From Asticcacaulis sp. (lineage in GTDB: Bacteria; Pseudomonadota; Alphaproteobacteria; Caulobacterales; Caulobacteraceae), in contig NZ_JAIWNX010000206.1 of assembly GCF_020217185.1 (NCBI RefSeq), positions 1 to 11,433 of the forward strand: a stretch of 11,433 nt of DNA, written 5' to 3'. Of the stretch, positions 2,180 to 11,042 are shown piece after piece. Below the pieces are notes generated by a model, which made no database searches, was not told the DNA's origin, and worked only from the letters and a program-made list of their open reading frames with translations. A program made the translations under genes and the position numbers. The number at the start of each line of letters is the position of its first letter. Position 1 is the first letter of the stretch.

Positions 2180-2210
2180 GCGGCGGAAAAGACCGCGCGC
2201 TTCATCTTGG
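2180..2210 (+). promoter_or_regulatory. Candidate ECF-sigma promoter or operator, copy 1 (upstream of galactanase)
   Basis: The sequence GCGGCGGAAA (2180-2189), 10 bases, then CTTCATCTTGG (2200-2210) is repeated with identical boxes and spacing at 5445-5475 upstream of the TonB-dependent receptor. The GGAAA core resembles the -35 element recognised by FecI-type ECF sigma factors. The second box lies where a -10 region could be, although I cannot fix the exact hexamers. The element ends 28 bases before the galactanase start, which fits a short-leader promoter. A regulator binding site is the alternative. Confidence 0.6.
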
Positions 2211-2238
2211 TTAGGGACAGTCCTTTCTGGAGTTTCTC

Positions 2239-3618
2239 ATGCCCCTTGCCCACCCGCTTCGCGCCCTGCCCGCCGCCCTGCTGCTGATGCTGGGTACCCT
2301 GCCCGCCGCCGAGGCCCGTGAAGGCCGCGCCTACTATTTCGGCAGCGACCTGTCCTATGTGAATGAGATGGAGGATTGCGGCGCGACCTACAGCCGCGAC
2401 GGCAAGCCAGAAGACGTCTATGCGCTGTTCAAGTCGTCCGGGGCCAATCTGGTGCGCCTGCGCCTGTGGAATGATCCCAAATGGACGCCCTATTCCAATC
2501 TCGCCGACGTGACCAGGGCCATGAAACGGGCCAGGGCCGCCGGTCTGCCCGTCCTGCTCGACTTCCACTATTCCGATGACTGGGCCGATGGCGACAAGCA
2601 ACTGGTACCCGCCGCCTGGGCCCATCTCAGCACCGATCAGCAGGTCGAAGCCCTGTATAAATTCACCTACGACACGCTGATGACCCTCAACGCGCAAGGG
2701 CTGATGCCGGATCAGGTTCAGGTCGGCAATGAAACCAATGGCGAGATGATGGGCTCGGTGACGTGGAAACAGGGCGATCCGGTCAAGCCGATCAACTGGG
2801 AACGCAATGCCCGCCTGTTCAATGCCGGTATCCGCGCCGTAAAGGACGCAGGCCTCAAGGCGGGCAAGACGCCGCGCATCATGCTGCACATCGCTCAGCC
2901 GGAAAACGTCGAGGGCTGGTTCCTCAAGGCGACCAAAGCCGGGATCGAAGGCTATGACCTGATCGGCATCAGCTATTATAAAAAGTGGTCGAAAATGGAC
3001 ATGGCGGGCCTTGGGGCGGTTATCAATCGCCTGCGCCACACCTATCCGGGTAAGGATATTGTGGTGGTCGAAACCGCCTATCCCTATACCGACAAGCATA
3101 TAGACGAAAACGTCAATCTGATGGGCGAAGATTCGACCTTCCCCGCCTATGGCTTTTCGCCCGAAGGTCAGGCGCGCTACCTGCACGACCTAATGCAACT
3201 GACGCTCGACAATGGCGGCGCGGGCGTTGTCTATTGGGAACCGGCGTGGGTGTCCACCAAGTGCAAAACGCGCTGGGGCAGCGGCTCCAACTGGGAAAAC
3301 GCCACCTTCTTCGACTTTGCGGGCAAGGCCCTGCTGGCGCTGGACTGGCCCAAAGCCGATTACGTCTATCCGGTCGAAATGACCTTCCGGGTGAAGGACG
3401 AAGGCCAGTCTGCCCTGTTCGTTAGCGGCGACTTCACCGGTGGTCTGGCCGTGCCGATGACGCGCGAAAACGGCTGGTTCGTCTATCGCAGCTGGCAGCG
3501 CCCCGGTTCGACCCTGCTGGCCGGGGCTGCCACCACCCCCGAAGCCCTGAAAGACGCCCCCGCCTCAGAAATCACCGTCCCGGCGAAGGCCGCCGTGGCG
3601 ACCCTATCGACAAAATAA
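2239..3618 (+). CDS. Arabinogalactan endo-beta-1,4-galactanase, GH53, secreted
   Basis: This 459-residue protein should cut internal beta-1,4-galactosidic bonds in galactan or type I arabinogalactan. Residues 1-26 form a Sec signal peptide (leucine/alanine core, likely cleavage after AEA). Residues about 31-375 match the GH53 TIM barrel: YYFGSDLSYVNEMED at the N-terminus, VRLRLWNDP, LLDFHYSDDWAD, and the catalytic pair E165 in QVGNETNGEM (acid/base) and E278 in VVVETAYPYT (nucleophile). The motif VYWEPAWV near residue 330 is also typical. Residues about 376-459 are an extra C-terminal domain (VEMTFRV, ALFVSGDFTG) that looks like a small beta-sandwich. GGAG at 2229-2232 lies 6 bases before the ATG and supports this start. 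The gene stands alone ahead of the ECF sigma gene, with the shared promoter-like motif upstream. Family assignment is firm; the exact substrate is inferred. Confidence 0.95.
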   Translation: MPLAHPLRALPAALLLMLGTLPAAEAREGRAYYFGSDLSYVNEMEDCGATYSRDGKPEDVYALFKSSGANLVRLRLWNDPKWTPYSNLADVTRAMKRARAAGLPVLLDFHYSDDWADGDKQLVPAAWAHLSTDQQVEALYKFTYDTLMTLNAQGLMPDQVQVGNETNGEMMGSVTWKQGDPVKPINWERNARLFNAGIRAVKDAGLKAGKTPRIMLHIAQPENVEGWFLKATKAGIEGYDLIGISYYKKWSKMDMAGLGAVINRLRHTYPGKDIVVVETAYPYTDKHIDENVNLMGEDSTFPAYGFSPEGQARYLHDLMQLTLDNGGAGVVYWEPAWVSTKCKTRWGSGSNWENATFFDFAGKALLALDWPKADYVYPVEMTFRVKDEGQSALFVSGDFTGGLAVPMTRENGWFVYRSWQRPGSTLLAGAATTPEALKDAPASEITVPAKAAVATLSTK

Positions 3619-3627
3619 TCACACAGC

Positions 3628-3645
3628 GACGTTCGCGCGTCTTTT
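3628..3645 (+). terminator. Weak candidate intrinsic terminator after galactanase
   Basis: A short hairpin GACGT-TCGC-GCGTC (five pairs including one U-G) begins 10 bases after the galactanase stop and is followed directly by TTTT. The stem is short and the T run is only four bases, so termination may be weak or absent. Confidence 0.35.
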
Positions 3646-3714
3646 ATCATACAAATATCTGGTCAAAAACGCGCGGACGTGTTTACTCTGTGAGACAACC
3701 CCGCCTGTGGGCAG

Positions 3715-3746
3715 GTGATGAAAATGGGGAAACCGGTTTTCGTCAC
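3715..3746 (+). promoter_or_regulatory. Inverted repeat enclosing an AAACCGGTTT palindrome, upstream of the ECF sigma gene
   Basis: GTGATGAAAA (3715-3724) and TTTTCGTCAC (3737-3746) can form a 10-pair stem with one U-G wobble around a 12-base loop. Overlapping it, AAACCGGTTT (3730-3739) is a perfect 10-base palindrome with a central CG. That form is common in operators of LacI-family regulators. A related GAAACCGGCTTTTG lies at 3797-3810. No T run follows, so it is unlikely to be a terminator. An operator for an unlinked sugar regulator is one reading and an RNA structure is another; neither is established. Confidence 0.35.
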
Positions 3747-3829
3747 CGGCTGAATCACGAGAGACGGGGGACTCAGGGAGTGCCACCGTGCGTATTGAAA
3801 CCGGCTTTTGCCAAAAAAAGCGCGCTGAC

Positions 3830-3860
3830 GCGGCGGAAACGCGCCGCTCGTGCATTTTAT
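3830..3860 (+). promoter_or_regulatory. Candidate ECF-sigma promoter, copy 3 (degenerate, upstream of the sigma gene)
   Basis: GCGGCGGAAA at 3830-3839 is identical to the first box of the elements at 2180 and 5445. After the same 10-base gap, GTGCATTTTAT (3850-3860) matches CTTCATCTTGG at 6 of 11 positions, including the CAT and a following TT. It ends 31 bases before the sigma start, similar to copy 1. If real, it indicates autoregulation. The same stretch can form a GCGGCG/CGCCGC hairpin (3830-3847), which is a competing explanation. Confidence 0.4.
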
Positions 3861-3891
3861 ACCGTAGAGGCGTCTGCCGGGCGGGGCTGTT

Positions 3892-4461
3892 ATGAGCGCG
3901 CACGACGAACGTCTGGCTTTCATCGGGACGCACATCCTGCCGCATGAGCCGGGGATGCGTCAGTGGCTGTCGCGCGCCGGGCTTTCGCCGTCGGAGCGCG
4001 ACGATCTGGTTCAGGAGGTCTATTACCGCCTGCTGCGCCAGACCAGCTACGCCCATATCACCGACCCGCGCGCCTATCTGTATCGGATGGCGCGCAATCT
4101 GATGCTGGAGCAGATCAGGAAAAACCGCGTCGTGTCGATCACCACCGTTCAAAACCTCGATGAGCTGGGCCGGGCCGATCTGTCGCCCACGCCGGAGCAG
4201 GCCGTTTCGGCGCGCCGCGAGTTGTCGCGCGTCATGGCCTTTATCGAGAGCCTGCCCGCCCGTTGCAAGGCGGTGTTTGAGCTGCGCAAGGTGCACGGCC
4301 TGTCTCAGGCCGAAACCGCCGCGCGGCTGGGCCTCAGCGAGAACGTGGTGGAAAAGGAAACGGCACGCGGCCTCACCCTGATCCTAAAGCAGGTCGCCGA
4401 AGGCGATGCGCCCGCTCTGGTGCCGATGCAACCCACCCGGACCCGGCATGTCGGCCATTGA
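3892..4461 (+). CDS. ECF-subfamily RNA polymerase sigma factor, FecI-like
   Basis: The 189-residue product should direct RNA polymerase to a small set of promoters, held in check by the FecR-like protein encoded next. Sigma region 2 spans about residues 35-90 (SERDDLVQEVYYRLL, then DPRAYLYRMARNLMLEQIRKNR, typical of FecI-type factors). Region 4 spans about 118-170 (IESLPARCKAVFELRKVHGLSQAETAARLGLSE, a helix-turn-helix). Length fits the family. The stop codon overlaps the start of the FecR gene by 14 bases, indicating translational coupling. The ribosome-binding site is poor (GGGG in GCGGGGCTGTT), and an in-frame stop just upstream limits alternative starts. Candidate self-regulated promoter at 3830-3860. 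The signal is inferred to be a galactan-derived sugar from the flanking hydrolases. Confidence 0.95.
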   Translation: MSAHDERLAFIGTHILPHEPGMRQWLSRAGLSPSERDDLVQEVYYRLLRQTSYAHITDPRAYLYRMARNLMLEQIRKNRVVSITTVQNLDELGRADLSPTPEQAVSARRELSRVMAFIESLPARCKAVFELRKVHGLSQAETAARLGLSENVVEKETARGLTLILKQVAEGDAPALVPMQPTRTRHVGH

Positions 4462-5416
4462 CGAGCAGGCTGCGGCCTACATAGCGGCGCGCGCCGCCGG
4501 GCGCTGGGATGAGGCCGATCAGGCTGCGCTTGAGGCGTGGCTGGCGGCCGATACGCGGCATCAGGGTGCCTTTTTCCGCGCCGAAGCCGCCTGGGCCATG
4601 CTCGATCGCGCCAGCGTGATGGGCGCAGGCGTCCCCGCCGATACGCTGCATACCTCTCCTTTTCGGGCCTTAGCCCCCCGCCCGCGGCCCCTCACCCGTC
4701 GCCAATGGCTGGCCGGGGGCGGCCTGATCGCGGCGTCGGTTGCCGGCGCGGCCCTGATCCTGCCCGCATTGACCCATCAGCGGCTTCAGACCGAGGTGGG
4801 TGAACTGCGCAAGGTGCCGCTGAAAGACCAAAGCATCGCCAGCGTCAATACCGATACCACGCTCGATGTCGCGCTGGGGGCCAAACGCCGCGACATCCGC
4901 CTGATCCGTGGCGAGGCGTGGTTTCAGGTCGCCAAGGACAAGACCCGCCCCTTTGTGGTCGAAGCCGATACGGTACGCGCCCGCGCGGTCGGCACGGCGT
5001 TTGGCGTGCGCCGCTACCCCGACGGGGCCGAGGTCATGGTCAGCGAGGGCGTGGTCGAGGTGTGGAACACACAGGCACCGGACACCCCTACACGCCTCGA
5101 GGCCGGGGGCCGGGTCTTTGTGCCCTATGCGTCGCAGCCGATCCGCGCGGAATACGCTCCCGAAACCGTGGATCGTCGTCTGGCGTGGCGCGAGGGGCAG
5201 ATCGCGCTCGATAATGACAGCCTCACCCACGCCGCCGCTGAGTTCAACCGCTACAACAGCCGCAAGATCGTGATTGCCGATCCGGCGCTGGGGGACGAGA
5301 AGCTGGTCGGCTGGTTCCGCGCCGATCAGCCGGACACCTTTGCCCGCTCGGTGCATCTGGCGCTCGACGTGCCGGTGCGCATCGACGACACGCGCATCGT
5401 CATCGGCACGGAATAA
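4448..5416 (+). CDS. FecR-family anti-sigma / transmembrane signal transducer
   Basis: This 322-residue protein should carry the signal from the outer-membrane receptor through the periplasm to the ECF sigma factor. The cytoplasmic N-terminal domain (residues about 5-55, AAAYIAARAAGRWDEADQAAL and WLAADTRHQGAFFRAEAAW) is the FecR_N type that binds the sigma. One membrane segment lies at about 87-108 (WLAGGGLIAASVAGAALILPAL). The periplasmic FecR domain spans about 115-220 (VGELRKVPLKDQS, IRLIRGEAWFQVAKD, RARAVGTAFGVR). The C-terminal part (about 245-320, GQIALDNDSLTHAAAEFNRYN) is an STN-like domain likely to contact the receptor. I prefer the ATG at 4448 (MSAIDEQ) over the in-frame ATG at 4406, because the family begins at this point and it gives the usual 14-base coupling overlap with the sigma gene. 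Confidence 0.93.
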   Translation: MSAIDEQAAAYIAARAAGRWDEADQAALEAWLAADTRHQGAFFRAEAAWAMLDRASVMGAGVPADTLHTSPFRALAPRPRPLTRRQWLAGGGLIAASVAGAALILPALTHQRLQTEVGELRKVPLKDQSIASVNTDTTLDVALGAKRRDIRLIRGEAWFQVAKDKTRPFVVEADTVRARAVGTAFGVRRYPDGAEVMVSEGVVEVWNTQAPDTPTRLEAGGRVFVPYASQPIRAEYAPETVDRRLAWREGQIALDNDSLTHAAAEFNRYNSRKIVIADPALGDEKLVGWFRADQPDTFARSVHLALDVPVRIDDTRIVIGTE

Positions 5417-5444
5417 AATAAATAAGATAAAAATATCGAATGAG

Positions 5445-5475
5445 GCGGCGGAAAGCGTTTCGGGCTTCATCTTGG
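5445..5475 (+). promoter_or_regulatory. Candidate ECF-sigma promoter or operator, copy 2 (upstream of TonB-dependent receptor)
   Basis: GCGGCGGAAA (5445-5454), 10 bases, then CTTCATCTTGG (5465-5475) matches the element at 2180-2210 in both boxes and in spacing, while the 10-base spacer differs. It follows a very A/T-rich stretch (5411-5439) after the FecR stop. It ends 93 bases before the receptor start, leaving a leader of roughly 85-90 bases if it is a promoter. Confidence 0.6.
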
Positions 5476-5481
5476 ATAACA

Positions 5482-5540
5482 GGAGGGGTGACTGCCGCCA
5501 GACCGGCACACCCGATAAAAAGCAACCGCAGTCCCACTCC
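5482..5540 (+). promoter_or_regulatory. Possible 5' leader hairpin of the receptor mRNA
   Basis: GACTGC (5490-5495) pairs with GCAGTC (5528-5533), and the outer GGAG (5482-5485) pairs with CTCC (5537-5540) across a small internal loop. The structure would bury the purine-rich AGGAGGGG at 5481-5488, which looks like a ribosome-binding site but is badly spaced for any start. The function is unknown; it may stabilise or modulate translation of the receptor transcript. Confidence 0.25.
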
Positions 5541-5568
5541 ACGGCGCGGTCCTACGGGAAACACCATA

Positions 5569-8472
5569 ATGATCCAGTTCTCCGGTGCCTCACGAGCCGC
5601 CCTGATCGCCGCGCTGAGCGTCAGCGCCGCCTATAGCGCCCCTGCCTTTGCGCAAAACAAGGCCTTCGCCATCCCTGCGCAACCCGCCGCCAAGGGCGTG
5701 CAGGCTTTCGCCCAGCAGTCGGGCCTTCAGGTGCTGGCCAGCGCCGATGACCTCAATGGCCTGCGCACCAACGCCGTTGAAGGCACGCTGCCCGTTGATA
5801 AGGCCCTGATCCAACTGATCAGCGGCACCGGCCTCAGCCTGAAATCGAACGATGGCCGCGCCGCCGTACTGGTGCGCGCCTCTGCCGCCAGCATCGAGCG
5901 TACCGCCGACACCGCACAGGCCGAAGCCCCCGCCGATGAGCCGGAAGAGGTGACGGTCGTCGGTATCCGCAAGTCGCTGCGCGACGCCATCGACCAGAAG
6001 CGTTCCAGCGCCGGGGTCGCCGAATTTATCTCGGCCAAGGAAATCGGCGTACTGCCCGACGTCACCATCGCCGAATCTCTGGCGCGCCTGCCGGGTGTCA
6101 CCACCTCGCGCGATCGTGGCAATGACAGTCAGGCCTCGATCCGCGGCATCGGCCCGCGCATGGTGCTGGGCACCGTCAATGGCCGCGAAGTGGCGACCTC
6201 CGAGCCCGACCGCAACGTCCGCTGGGAAATCTATCCTTCCGAAGTGGTCGCCGGGGCTGCCGTCTATAAGTCCTCCGAAGCCCGCCTCCTGTCGGGCGGC
6301 ATTTCGGGCACGGTCGATCTGCAAACCATCCGTCCCCTCGCCTATTCGGGGCCGCAGTTCGTGGCCCGCGCCGGGGCCGTCTATTACGACGGCGGCAAGG
6401 CGTTTCCGGGCTATGACGGCCTCGGCTGGCGCGCCTCGGGCTCATGGGTGAAGAAGGTCAATGACCAGTTCGCCTTTGTCGTGGGCCTGACAGGTCAGAA
6501 GCAGAAGAACGGCTATGAGAGCTTCCGTGGCTGGGGCTTCAACGACGACTCGATCCGCGCCGGTAACTCGACCGGCCCGGTCGTCGCGGGCGGCCCCAAG
6601 GTGCCGACGCCGTGGGGCGCGGGGTCCGAAGCCAAGTTCCTCGATGCCGACCGCTATTCGGCCTCGCTCGGCGCACAATACCGCCCGAACGCGCAGTTCG
6701 AACTGACCTACGATCTGCTCTATTCGAAGTACAAGATCAAGGAAGACCAGAACCAGACCTGGTACGGCGAAAACAACTGGGGCAACTGGGCCGGTGGCAA
6801 TACGGGCAGCTTCAGCAATCCGGTCATCGTCAATGGCGATCTGGTCGGGGCGACGACCGCGTGGTCGCGTCTGATGCCGGTCGTGGCACGCTATGCCGAA
6901 GACAAGTCGCTGCTGGTCACCGGTCTGAACGGCAAGTGGTCGAGCGAACTGTGGACTATCACCGCCGATCTCTCCTATTCGAATGCCGAACGTGAAAACA
7001 CCTGGCGCGCCATCAAGATGGAATATTATCCGTCCAGCATGACGTGGCTTTTGAGCGAAGACCCGTTCATCACCGTCACGCAACCGCCGGAGACGGCCAC
7101 CCTGTCCACCGTGGCCGGGACCAATGACGTGGGTAAGGTCAAGGACGAACTGACGTCTGGTCAGCTCGATTTCCGCCGCGACTTCGGCGGTGACTTCTGG
7201 ACCTCGTTGCAGTTCGGCGCCCGCTATGCCGACCGCACCAAGTCCGAAGCCACCGGCTATACGCAGGCCGCGGGCCCCGTTACGGCCAGCCTGAACGCCT
7301 CGACCCTGACGGCCTATAAGCTGGAGAATTTCAACGTTCCGGCCATGTTGAAGGGCGATTTCGACGCCCTGCGCACGCAGGTCTATGGCCCCAACGCCTT
7401 CAGCCTGTCGCCGGATCAGATCGCCTACAATTCCGAAGTCTCGGAAAAGGTTGGCGAAGCCTATGTGCAGGGCAATTTCGCCTCGACCTTCATCGACGCT
7501 CCGGTCACGGGTAATGTCGGCCTGAGGGTCGTCAATGTCGATAGCCAGTCGTCTGGCGCCTCGCGCACCAGCGTCTGGGTCGAAGCCACGCCCGGCAACT
7601 GGGTCGAGCGCGTGACCCTGACCCCCACCACGGGCGGCGTCAGCTACACCAAGGTCCTGCCCTCGGCTTCGGTCAAGGTGCAGGTGATCGACAATGGCTT
7701 CCTGAAACTCGGTCTGGCCCGCGTCATGTCGCGCGCGCCGCTGAACGAACTGAAGGCCAATCGCGCCATCTCGACCTCGGCCCCCTATACGGGTTCGGCC
7801 GGCAACCCCTATCTGAAGCCGTTTGAGGCCGATCAGATCGACGTCTCTTATGAATACTACTTCCGTCCGGACTCGCTGTTCGCGGTGGCGGGCTATTACA
7901 AGAACGTCAAGAACTATGTCGGCTATAACCAGCGCACCGAAACGATCAACGGCAATGTCTATACCCTGACCTCGCCGATCAATTCGAGCAAGGGCGGCTT
8001 CATTTCGGGCGTCGAATTCACCTTCCAGACGCCGTTCGACACCTTCTTGCCGAATGTGTCGTGGCTGGACCGCTTTGGCATCTATTCCAACCTGGCTCTG
8101 GTCAATTCCAACATCAAGGAATTCGTCCCGGCGGGTAACCCGCTGCCGATGAACGGCGTGGCCGATACCACGGCCATTCTTGACCTGTGGTATTCGGACA
8201 AGAAGTTCGAAGCGCGTCTGGGGGCCAAGTACCATTCGGAATACACCGCCATCCTCGGCTGGGATTCGACCAATCTGGTGCGCGTGATGCCGGAAACGAC
8301 GCTCGACTTCTCCGCGGGCTATAATATCAACTCCAGCGTCTCGCTGCGCTTCCAGGCGGGCAACCTGCTGGATACGCCGATGAAGGTCTATACGGACTAT
8401 AAGTCAAACCGTGTGGGCGACATGTCCTATTATGGCCGTCGCTTCCTGTTCGATCTGACGTACAAATTCTAA
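5569..8472 (+). CDS. TonB-dependent outer-membrane receptor with STN signalling domain (Xanthomonas/Caulobacter type)
   Basis: This 967-residue outer-membrane receptor should import an oligosaccharide using TonB energy and signal its presence to the neighbouring FecR protein. In order: signal peptide 1-28 (cleavage after APAFA), STN domain about 32-104 (FAIPAQPAAKGVQAFAQQSGL, ending LVRAS), a proline/glutamate linker, a TonB-box-like EEVTVVG at 126-132, plug about 136-255 (RKSLRDAIDQKRSS, EIGVLPDVTIAESLARLPGV, IRGIGPR, GGISGTVDLQT), and a beta-barrel to the end, closing with FDLTYKF and its terminal phenylalanine. I place the start at 5569 (MIQFSGAS) because the signal peptide begins there. 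The in-frame ATG at 5440 and GTG at 5488 would add a basic, non-signal leader. GGGAA at 5556-5560 is a modest ribosome-binding site. The receptor type is sure; the galactan substrate is inferred from neighbours. Confidence 0.95.
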   Translation: MIQFSGASRAALIAALSVSAAYSAPAFAQNKAFAIPAQPAAKGVQAFAQQSGLQVLASADDLNGLRTNAVEGTLPVDKALIQLISGTGLSLKSNDGRAAVLVRASAASIERTADTAQAEAPADEPEEVTVVGIRKSLRDAIDQKRSSAGVAEFISAKEIGVLPDVTIAESLARLPGVTTSRDRGNDSQASIRGIGPRMVLGTVNGREVATSEPDRNVRWEIYPSEVVAGAAVYKSSEARLLSGGISGTVDLQTIRPLAYSGPQFVARAGAVYYDGGKAFPGYDGLGWRASGSWVKKVNDQFAFVVGLTGQKQKNGYESFRGWGFNDDSIRAGNSTGPVVAGGPKVPTPWGAGSEAKFLDADRYSASLGAQYRPNAQFELTYDLLYSKYKIKEDQNQTWYGENNWGNWAGGNTGSFSNPVIVNGDLVGATTAWSRLMPVVARYAEDKSLLVTGLNGKWSSELWTITADLSYSNAERENTWRAIKMEYYPSSMTWLLSEDPFITVTQPPETATLSTVAGTNDVGKVKDELTSGQLDFRRDFGGDFWTSLQFGARYADRTKSEATGYTQAAGPVTASLNASTLTAYKLENFNVPAMLKGDFDALRTQVYGPNAFSLSPDQIAYNSEVSEKVGEAYVQGNFASTFIDAPVTGNVGLRVVNVDSQSSGASRTSVWVEATPGNWVERVTLTPTTGGVSYTKVLPSASVKVQVIDNGFLKLGLARVMSRAPLNELKANRAISTSAPYTGSAGNPYLKPFEADQIDVSYEYYFRPDSLFAVAGYYKNVKNYVGYNQRTETINGNVYTLTSPINSSKGGFISGVEFTFQTPFDTFLPNVSWLDRFGIYSNLALVNSNIKEFVPAGNPLPMNGVADTTAILDLWYSDKKFEARLGAKYHSEYTAILGWDSTNLVRVMPETTLDFSAGYNINSSVSLRFQAGNLLDTPMKVYTDYKSNRVGDMSYYGRRFLFDLTYKF

Positions 8473-8561: not shown

Positions 8562-11042
8562 ATGACCGATCTCAACCGTCGCCGCCTGCTGCAAACCGCT
8601 GCCGTCACCGGAGCGGCCCTGACGGCACCGCACGCCGTAGCGACCGCGAAGGCGACCGAGCCCGTCATCGACTTTTTCCCGCAGGACGACCTCGGCCCGC
8701 GTGAGCGGGTCTCGCTCGATCTCGACTGGCGCTTCACCTTTGGCCACGCCAGCGATATGAGCCGCGATTTCGATTACGGGCTGGCGCTACGTACCCACGC
8801 CAAGCAAGGCGCGCGCGTCGCCACCTGCGTCGGCGCGGATTTTGATGATTCCAACTGGCAAAAGATCGACGTGCCGCACGACTGGGCCGTCGCCCTGCCC
8901 TTTGCGCAAGGCGTCAAAGGCCCCATCGCCAATGGCGAGGATGAGCCCGACATGCTGGCGGCGCACGGCTATAAACCCATCGGCCGCGACTTCCCCGAAA
9001 CCTCTATCGGCTGGTATCGCCGCGTGGTGCCGGTGTCGCCTGCGGATAAGGGCAAGCGTCTGTGGATCGAGTTCGACGGCGTGTTCCGTAACGCGCTGAT
9101 CATCTTCAATGGCTTTATCCTGAAACGGCATGAGAGCGGCTACACCTCGTTTCAGGTCGATATCACCGACTTTATCAATACGGACGACAAGCCCAATATC
9201 CTGACCGTGCGCGTTGATGCGACCGAAGGCGAAGGCTGGTTCTACGAAGGCGCGGGCATCTATCGCCACGTCTGGCTGGTGAAGACCCACGCCGTGCATG
9301 TCCCGCAATGGGGCGTCTGCGTGCGCGGAAAGACCGACGGCACGGTCGAGATTGAAACCACGGTACGCAATGCCTCCGCTCAGCCGCGCAACGTCAAACT
9401 CACCTCGACCATCGGGGGTAAGGAAGCGCAGGACGGGGCCACGGCTGAGGTGGCTGCGGGCGAGTCCACCACCGTGCGTCAGACGCTGAAACTGACCAAC
9501 CCCATCCTGTGGTCGGTCGATACACCGCACCTCTACTGGCTGGAAACAACCGTTGAGGCGGACGACGGTATTCAGGACAGGGTGGTGACCTATTTCGGCC
9601 TGCGCGATATCCGCTTTGACGCCGAAAAAGGCTTTCTGCTCAACGGGAAGCCGGTCAAACTTAAAGGGACCAACAACCATCAGGACCACGCCGGGGTCGG
9701 CGCCGCCATCCCTGACGCCCTGCAAGTCTGGCGTTTGCAGCAACTGAAAGACATGGGCTCCAACGCCTATCGCTGCTCGCACAATCCGCCGACCCCCGAA
9801 GTGCTGATGGCCTGCGACCGGCTGGGCATCCTCGTCATCGACGAAACGCGCAAGATGTCGTCCAGTGAGGACGGCCTCTATCAACTCGACGCCATGATCC
9901 GTCGCGACCGCAACCATCCGTCGGTCATCGCCTGGTCGATCTGCAACGAAGAACCGCTACAGGGCACCGAACGCGGCATCGAAGTCGCCAAAACCATGAA
10001 GGCCCTGTGCAAGCGCCTTGACCCCACCCGTCCGGTGACGGCGGCGCTCGACAATTCCTACGGCAAGGGCATCACCTCGGTCGTCGATGTGCTGGGCTTC
10101 AACTATCGCCATCACCTGATGGAAAAGTTCCACGCCGACTATCCGAACATCCCCATCTATGGCTCGGAAACCGGCTCAACGGTCTCAACGCGCGGCGAAT
10201 ACGTCAATGACCCGGCGCGCTCCGTGTTGCGGGCCTACGACACCGAGCATCCGTGGTGGGCCTCGACCGCCGAAGCCTACTGGCCGCTGTTCGACGAGAA
10301 GGCCTTTATTGCCGGTGGCTTCATTTGGACGGGCTTCGATTATCGCGGCGAGCCGACGCCCTATAACCGCTGGCCGGCCATTTCGTCGCAATTCGGCATT
10401 CTCGACACCTGTGGCTTCCCGAAGGACAATGCCTTCTATTACCGCGCCTGGTGGAAGAATGAGCCGCTTCTGCACCTGTTCCCACACTGGAACTGGGAAG
10501 GCAAGGAAGGGCAAAACATCCCCGTCTGGGTGCATTCGAATCTCGATGCCGTCGAACTGTTCGTCAATGGTAAGTCGCAGGGCAAGAAGAGCGTCGTCAA
10601 AAACCGCCACCTCGAATGGGATGTGGTCTATCAGCCGGGCAAGATTCAAGCCTTTGGCTATAAGGGTAACAAGGTGGTCATGAAGGCCACGCGCGAAACC
10701 GCCGGACCGGCGACGAAGCTGGTCCTGACGGCCGATCGCACGGCATTGAAGGCCGATGGCCGCGATGTGGCGGTGTTCAAGGTCGAAGCCTTTGACGCCA
10801 AGGGCCGCCCGGTGCCGAAAGCCGATAATCTGGTGAAATTCTCCCTGTCCGGCGGCGGGGCGGTGATCGGCGTCGGCAATGGTAATCCGGCCAGCCATGA
10901 GGCCGACAAGGCCTCTGAACGCAAGCTGTTCAACGGTCTGGCGCAGGCCATTGTTCAAACCGGACGTTCGGCCGGGCGGATCACGGTGACGGCCTCGGCA
11001 GAGGGGTTGAAACCGTCGAGCGTGACCCTGATCACCGCTTAG
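8562..11042 (+). CDS. GH2 beta-galactosidase-like glycoside hydrolase, Tat-exported
   Basis: This 826-residue enzyme is expected to release terminal beta-linked galactose from oligosaccharides, probably in the periplasm. The N-terminus carries a twin-arginine signal (NRRRLLQT at 5-12, alanine-rich stretch, cleavage near residues 27-29). Then come a GH2 sugar-binding domain about 45-225 (LDLDWRFTFG, VPHDWAV, GWYRRVV), an immunoglobulin-like domain about 235-345, and a TIM barrel about 350-640. The likely catalytic residues are E463 in WSICNEEP (acid/base) and E536 in YGSETGST (nucleophile). A DUF4982-like module follows about 643-705 (VELFVNGKSQGKK), and a C-terminal Ig-like domain about 715-826. 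AGAGGGA at 8549-8555 supports the start. GH2 also includes beta-glucuronidases and beta-mannosidases; beta-galactosidase is favoured by the DUF4982 architecture and the neighbouring galactanase. The gene sits just past a strong terminator. Confidence 0.92.
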   Translation: MTDLNRRRLLQTAAVTGAALTAPHAVATAKATEPVIDFFPQDDLGPRERVSLDLDWRFTFGHASDMSRDFDYGLALRTHAKQGARVATCVGADFDDSNWQKIDVPHDWAVALPFAQGVKGPIANGEDEPDMLAAHGYKPIGRDFPETSIGWYRRVVPVSPADKGKRLWIEFDGVFRNALIIFNGFILKRHESGYTSFQVDITDFINTDDKPNILTVRVDATEGEGWFYEGAGIYRHVWLVKTHAVHVPQWGVCVRGKTDGTVEIETTVRNASAQPRNVKLTSTIGGKEAQDGATAEVAAGESTTVRQTLKLTNPILWSVDTPHLYWLETTVEADDGIQDRVVTYFGLRDIRFDAEKGFLLNGKPVKLKGTNNHQDHAGVGAAIPDALQVWRLQQLKDMGSNAYRCSHNPPTPEVLMACDRLGILVIDETRKMSSSEDGLYQLDAMIRRDRNHPSVIAWSICNEEPLQGTERGIEVAKTMKALCKRLDPTRPVTAALDNSYGKGITSVVDVLGFNYRHHLMEKFHADYPNIPIYGSETGSTVSTRGEYVNDPARSVLRAYDTEHPWWASTAEAYWPLFDEKAFIAGGFIWTGFDYRGEPTPYNRWPAISSQFGILDTCGFPKDNAFYYRAWWKNEPLLHLFPHWNWEGKEGQNIPVWVHSNLDAVELFVNGKSQGKKSVVKNRHLEWDVVYQPGKIQAFGYKGNKVVMKATRETAGPATKLVLTADRTALKADGRDVAVFKVEAFDAKGRPVPKADNLVKFSLSGGGAVIGVGNGNPASHEADKASERKLFNGLAQAIVQTGRSAGRITVTASAEGLKPSSVTLITA

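Follow-up and report, generated by a model that had tools for sequence, protein, structure and literature searches.

Does a galactan locus that encodes its own extracytoplasmic function (ECF) sigma factor also carry the promoters which that factor reads? The question is raised by a stretch of 11,433 nucleotides (here called the window), one whole contig of an Asticcacaulis-group (Caulobacteraceae) genome of 3.44 Mb (G000), which holds genes for a GH53 galactanase, a FecI-like ECF sigma, a FecR-type anti-sigma, a TonB-dependent receptor with an N-terminal STN domain, and the GH2 beta-galactosidase GalA. A two-box motif stands upstream of the galactanase, sigma and receptor genes, recurs at the same genes across the genus and tracks the sigma gene. 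From these sequence comparisons we conclude that it is very probably a promoter recognised by the ECF sigma of the same locus, controlling the galactan genes there.

The proposed promoter consists of a -35 element GGCGGAAA, a spacer of 13 (sometimes 14) bp and a -10 element CATCTT. A galactan fragment would bind the STN receptor, a signal would pass via FecR, and the sigma would be freed or activated. Active sigma would then turn on three units (the galactanase, sigma-fecR and receptor-beta-galactosidase), of which sigma-fecR would form a positive feedback through an off-consensus -10. In the window's clade a fourth unit is likely to be controlled as well, an FCD-GntR regulator gene that neighbours another galactosidase-like gene; it completes the regulon predicted for the window. 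The substrate is read as galactan because of the enzymes in the locus. On this view FecI-type surface signalling would serve here for a plant polysaccharide; the sigma is probably autoregulated and the -35 apparently shifted.

Motif copies and geometry of the proposed promoter

The original prediction held that GCGGCGGAAA-N10-CTTCATCTTGG occurs twice with all 21 box positions and the spacing identical, and both copies (2180-2210 and 5445-5475) were indeed recovered with no mismatches. No further copy was found in the window at up to three mismatches, and the motif never arose in 200 dinucleotide-preserving shuffles of it. The weaker third version proposed before the sigma gene is also present, at 3830-3860, with five mismatches (16 of 21 positions kept) and its end 31 bases before the ATG at 3892; all three copies (2180, 3830 and 5445) have, as had been claimed, the same orientation as the gene downstream. 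The 5445 copy falls within a long open frame (5440-8472). Since the signal peptide of the receptor, judged by eye, begins at ATG 5569 (MIQFSG...), we place this site upstream of the receptor gene. The genome-wide search suggested earlier, run over 3.44 Mb at up to three mismatches, gave four additional places, every one at three mismatches, and none for the reversed pattern.

Which bases form the -35 and the -10 had been left unclear, although GGAAA had been likened to FecI-type -35 elements. The mapped reference, the S. meliloti ECF promoter sorT, has GGAA, 17 bp and CGTC, with the start 13 nt past that C (PMC6180224). The distance from GGAA to the -10 is 14 bp at all three window sites against 17 in sorT; GGAAA falls short of the standard distance by 3 bp and was rejected on geometry as a standard -35. 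The first G of GGCGG has a 21-bp offset, the same as in sorT, which makes GGCGG(AAA), that is GGCGGAAA, the best reading of the -35 and CATCTT that of the -10. By the same comparison, the predicted transcription start is 13 nt downstream of the C in CATC.

Seven species (L014-L020) offer an independent check, since their GH53 ATG itself is 13 nt (14 in L014) past the C of CATC. This being the sorT start distance, those mRNAs are predicted to be leaderless, a state reported for 375 Caulobacter mRNAs (PMC4117421). The GH53 message of the window differs in its short predicted leader, which contains GGAG. GH53 messages would lack a leader in one branch of the genus and possess one in the other, with the promoter unchanged.

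Sites, candidate targets and the sigma gene across Asticcacaulis

We fetched 80 relatives with the window galactanase as query (the closest, at 95-96%, are in Asticcacaulis) and compared 14 Asticcacaulis galactan loci, the window included, omitting L010 as a near-copy of L011. The site search required GGCGGAAA, 13 or 14 bp, then C[AG]T[CT]. A site was found in 37 of 40 upstream regions (GH53 13/14, STN-type receptor 13/13, sigma 11/13); full conservation of the required letters follows from the construction of the search, and the finding proper is that 37 of the 40 regions have a site. The spacer is 13 bp in 34 sites and 14 bp in three. Among columns that were not required, with the three genes pooled, those that stand out are the final TT of the -10 (0.9 and 1.2 bits) and, at 1.3 bits, the C that precedes GGCGG, most remaining spacer and flank columns being below 0.6 bits, and the -10 letters mostly read CATCTT. 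The alignment of relatives that the original prediction called for bears it out in that the core recurs before GH53, receptor and sigma across the genus, while showing that 21 positions overstate this core: the relatives share only (C)GGCGGAAA and CATCTT.

Scored without required letters, the best core matches, of 14 positions, are 12-14 for GH53, 13-14 for the receptor and 12-14 for the sigma gene barring two at 9. The same scoring upstream of GH2 (12 loci) gives 8-11, with 9 as the best in the window; GH2 was rejected as a separate target, and in the window GalA is probably transcribed together with the receptor. As a control we used 13 Caulobacter-type galactan loci in which no local sigma or FecR was seen, excluding L032 and L036, which have FecR or sigma matches nearby; upstream of their GH53, receptor and GH2 genes the scores reach only 8-11 of 14. 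No full STN similarity was seen in their receptors, the alignment to the window receptor starting at residue 75 or beyond in all 13.

Because the motif precedes the sigma gene in 11 of 13 loci, the sigma is predicted to be autoregulated. Its -10 reads CATCTT at only one site out of 11, whereas GH53 and receptor together have that -10 at 17 of 26 (Fisher p 0.003, uncorrected for phylogeny), and this departure from consensus suggests that autoregulation is damped.

A search of 25 genomes of the genus with the pattern GGCGGAAA-N13/14-CATCNT gave 61 matches; with the pattern reversed, as a control, it gave 2. Forty-two are at the GH53, sigma or receptor gene of a galactan locus (22 genomes), five precede the FCD-GntR gene, one precedes a second GH53 gene (in G150) and 13 are elsewhere. 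A crude frame caller puts twelve of these 13 within open frames, as it also does with several galactan sites whose frame starts early; the remaining one is in G109:C2. A match at G000:C18:7520, which falls within an open frame, was rejected as a target. A sigma orthologue (60-100% identity) is present in 23 of the 25 genomes. The other two, G029 and G094, have no orthologue (best 34% and 41%) and no motif match, and their best GH53 matches are at 35% and 42%. The site is also retained where the genes are apart: GH53-GH2 and sigma-fecR-receptor are on separate contigs of the draft genome G119, and in G109 receptor-GH2 lies about 0.2 Mb away from GH53-sigma-fecR, both parts keeping the site in each case.

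In the window's genome the FCD-GntR gene (G000:C157, site 3179-3206) adjoins GH42/DUF5597 and GH31 genes. GntR orthologues occur in all 25 genomes; six have the core (13-14 of 14) and the other 19 score 8-10, so the gene was rejected as a genus-wide target. Since the six all belong to the window's clade, it would be a recent addition to the regulon or one confined to that clade, where it counts as a likely additional target, on the evidence of six close relatives, which cannot prove function.

The second GH53 of G150:C35 (L166, L377) is distant, at 36% identity to that of the window, and has a core 59 nt upstream, which makes it a candidate extra target for that one species.

Paralogous sigmas and rival explanations

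FecI-like sigmas of this kind were found in 77 of 149 sampled Caulobacteraceae genomes, often several per genome, and the paralogues have variants of the motif that keep its geometry. In five loci of group-3 sigmas (about 44% identity), TACGGAA-N14-CATC precedes the sigma gene as well as the receptor gene; group-2 sigmas (about 50%; four loci, L177-L180) have GGCGGAAA-N13-CGTTG[TC] before the sigma gene. In the window's genome, at E <= 1e-20, there are only the galactan sigma and one group-3 paralogue. Among 136 distinct FecR-linked sigma loci, mostly from Caulobacteraceae, 66 have the general motif within 200 nt after fecR, a count in which the site before the sigma was used for the group-2 rows. 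Identical -35 and -10 triplets precede the sigma gene in 35 of the 66 (the group-2 rows by construction).

The sigma residues were compared with the bases of these sites. Among the 37 sigmas with K155, position 2 of the -35 is G in 36 and C in one, and among the 29 others it is A in 27 and C in two; position 2 of the -10 is A in 42 of 47 sigmas with L72 (G in five) and G in all 19 others. By label shuffling over 31 sequences below 80% identity, residue 155, in the recognition helix, ranks first of the tested sigma columns for the former (z 16.1), and residue 72, in region 2, for the latter (z 10.9; runner-up residue 73, z 6.6). In the solved SigE chain 9m9d_F the residue aligned to K155 is the S of VRSRI, in the helix that is known to contact -35 DNA. 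A possible, if somewhat doubtful, joint reading is that Caulobacteraceae have a FecI-like promoter class of their own, NN[C/A]GGAA-N13/14-C[A/G]T[C/T], whose extended -35 lies 3 bp nearer to the -10, and that the sigmas diversify by a small code in which residues 155 and 72 read one base each: K at residue 155 would go with G, and N or M with A, at the second -35 base, and L at residue 72 with A, and V or I with G, at the second -10 base. Outside Caulobacterales we tested 28 FecR-linked loci and set one aside as the window genome's own group-3 locus; the 27 FecI-like loci from other alphaproteobacterial orders (24 distinct places) had no motif at spacer 13 or 14, and two gave a loose GGAA..C[AG]TC pair, neither at these spacers. 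If true, the code would prevent cross-talk between several receptor circuits of one cell and make the regulon of each receptor readable from sequence.

Several results from the paralogues count against the promoter explanation or weaken the proposed code. The general motif is missing after fecR in 70 of the 136 loci (controls on those 70 gave 30 hits in 1400 letter shuffles and 3 in 70 on the opposite strand), and the group-2 receptors (L177-L180) have no upstream site with the geometry of the sigma site. Residue 22, with no -35 contact, is a close second to residue 155 (z 14.5 vs 16.1), a sign of shared descent. Residue 155 switches once or twice on the sigma tree, and for neither residue 155 nor residue 72 are independent pairs significant; with at most two and three starred independent pairs, the two residues were rejected as independent evidence and kept as suggestive. 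Upstream of the receptors of L177 and L178, CGTTGC with GGAAA farther upstream can be seen by eye.

Further evidence against the galactan promoter consists of exceptions within the genus. The sigma gene has no upstream site in L013 and L015 (best 9 of 14) or in G124 (L192), that of G089 and G109 has AGCGGAAA upstream instead, and the L013 galactanase has TGCGGAAA. The lone pattern match of G129 (= L014) falls within a frame away from the galactan genes, whose own sites end in CATCTA, CATCTG and CGTCTT, near-variants that fall outside the pattern, and the sigma match of G114 has two in-frame TGA though all three sites are present. Besides, the named loci and genomes are partly identical assemblies, and the 25-genome counts overlap with the 14-locus counts. 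The G114 sigma (G114:C1:1767223-1767696; L107, L240) is either a broken gene or an assembly error.

Many carbohydrate receptor genes are under sugar-responsive regulators, and the motif might be the site of a separate transcription factor, such as a sugar-responsive repressor, with the genes read from other promoters; that the FCD-GntR gene itself has the core upstream in six genomes would fit this. We consider it improbable, however, since at all galactan genes examined the motif is oriented like the gene, its boxes are spaced by 13 or 14 bp only, its distance to the ATG is constant over seven species, and paralogous sigma-receptor pairs have variants of their own. It is also not palindromic by eye, on which ground a palindromic operator was rejected. 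Another ECF sigma might read a real promoter here, for example a group-2 paralogue, since these have the same GGCGGAAA before their own gene. Their -10 is nevertheless CGTTGT or CGTTGC and not CATCTT, the window's genome shows the galactan sigma and a group-3 paralogue only (at E <= 1e-20), and the two genus genomes that lack the galactan sigma have no motif match; this explanation seems quite unlikely. Chance, or a recent duplication within the window, would suit two perfect copies that share 21 positions, but the shuffles, the differing spacers and flanks of the two copies and the recurrence of the core at the same genes over the genus leave it almost no weight. Recognition by the locus's own sigma, which the original prediction had offered as defining a galactan regulon, gains strong support from a motif that tracks the sigma gene, survives separation of the genes and varies with the paralogues.

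Our literature search found no study of the targets or inducers of the FecI-like sigmas of this family, and no earlier description of a FecI/ECF promoter with TonB in Caulobacteraceae, most subscription journals being outside the search. Where such a promoter can be read, a receptor of unknown substrate gains a small testable regulon and a substrate guess (here galactan), and natural sigmas differing in -35 or -10 alone are material for promoter-recognition tests.

Locus features and known systems

Features of the window, with the proposed promoter elements
Feature	Coordinates	Strand	Evidence or remark
-35 element GGCGGAAA, galactanase	2182..2189	+	motif search, relatives' alignment, offset measurement
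-10 element CATCTT, galactanase	2203..2208	+	predicted start ~2216, 23-nt leader; start distance from mapped ECF promoter (PMC6180224)
GH53 galactanase gene	2239..3618	+	Pfam PF07745 E 3e-108; signal peptide judged by eye
-35 element GGCGGAAA, sigma gene	3832..3839	+	motif search, relatives' alignment
-10 element CATTTT (off consensus), sigma gene	3853..3858	+	predicted start ~3866
ECF sigma gene, FecI-like	3892..4461	+	Pfam Sigma70_r2, r4_2, r4, Sigma70_ECF; NCBIfam sigma70-ECF 76.6 bits, cut-off 42.9
FecR-type anti-sigma gene	4448..5416	+	Pfam FecR E 2.3e-19; overlaps sigma stop
-35 element GGCGGAAA, receptor	5447..5454	+	motif search, relatives' alignment
-10 element CATCTT, receptor	5468..5473	+	predicted start ~5481, 88-nt leader
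Hairpin near 5' end of predicted receptor leader	5486..5513	+	folding; whole-leader z -0.75 in the window
TonB-dependent receptor gene with N-terminal STN	5569..8472	+	Pfam STN, Plug, barrel; TIGR01782 556.9 bits, cut-off 310
GH2 beta-galactosidase gene, GalA	8562..11042	+	NF041462 1143 bits, cut-off 900

The 189-aa sigma matches region-2 and region-4 families (r2, r4_2, r4) and the ECF family only, as a sigma made of these two regions should; the FecR-domain anti-sigma, with its overlapping frame, shares the sigma's operon, and the STN match of the receptor (E 6.6e-08) scores 32.7 bits against a gathering score of 28.4. The - strand at 1-2097 encodes a long PAS-repeat protein, truncated at the end of the contig and divergent from the galactanase. 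An Rfam search of the window gave no matches. Hairpins of differing stem sequence are found close to the 5' end of the predicted receptor leaders of several species (L009, L012, L013, L015, L020 and the window). Folding z scores of ten leaders, with that of the window in the table, were -4.4 (L012), -2.8 (L009), -2.5 (L015), -2.0 (L020), -1.6 (L013) and -1.2 (L011), and about 0 or above in L014, L016 and L018.

The nearest model is the E. coli FecI-FecR-FecA system, which likewise encodes an ECF sigma, a FecR anti-sigma and an STN receptor together and has a receptor promoter read by the sigma, as is predicted here. Its substrate is iron (ferric citrate), whereas the enzymes here point to galactan, and the window sigma scores 57.2 bits against a cut-off of 260 for the E. 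coli FecI equivalog NF041727. The E. coli fecIR genes are not autoregulated, according to PMC9249621, whereas here the motif precedes the sigma gene itself. The same paper describes HasI, a FecI-like sigma for heme, and thus for a different substrate, with a -35 region containing TTTACGGGTTT, close to the TACGG of group 3. In the S. meliloti ECF promoter the distance from GGAA to the -10 is 3 bp longer than here. Xanthomonas CUT loci, partly conserved in Caulobacter, resemble the window in joining a TonB receptor to carbohydrate genes (PMC1790865). Bacteroidetes loci, in a different phylum from the window's host, are alike in combining a polysaccharide-sensing SusC-like receptor, an anti-sigma and an ECF sigma; in PMC3878776, their ECF promoters are called challenging to predict without start-site data, and the pectic galactan of B. 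thetaiotaomicron is listed under a hybrid two-component regulator.

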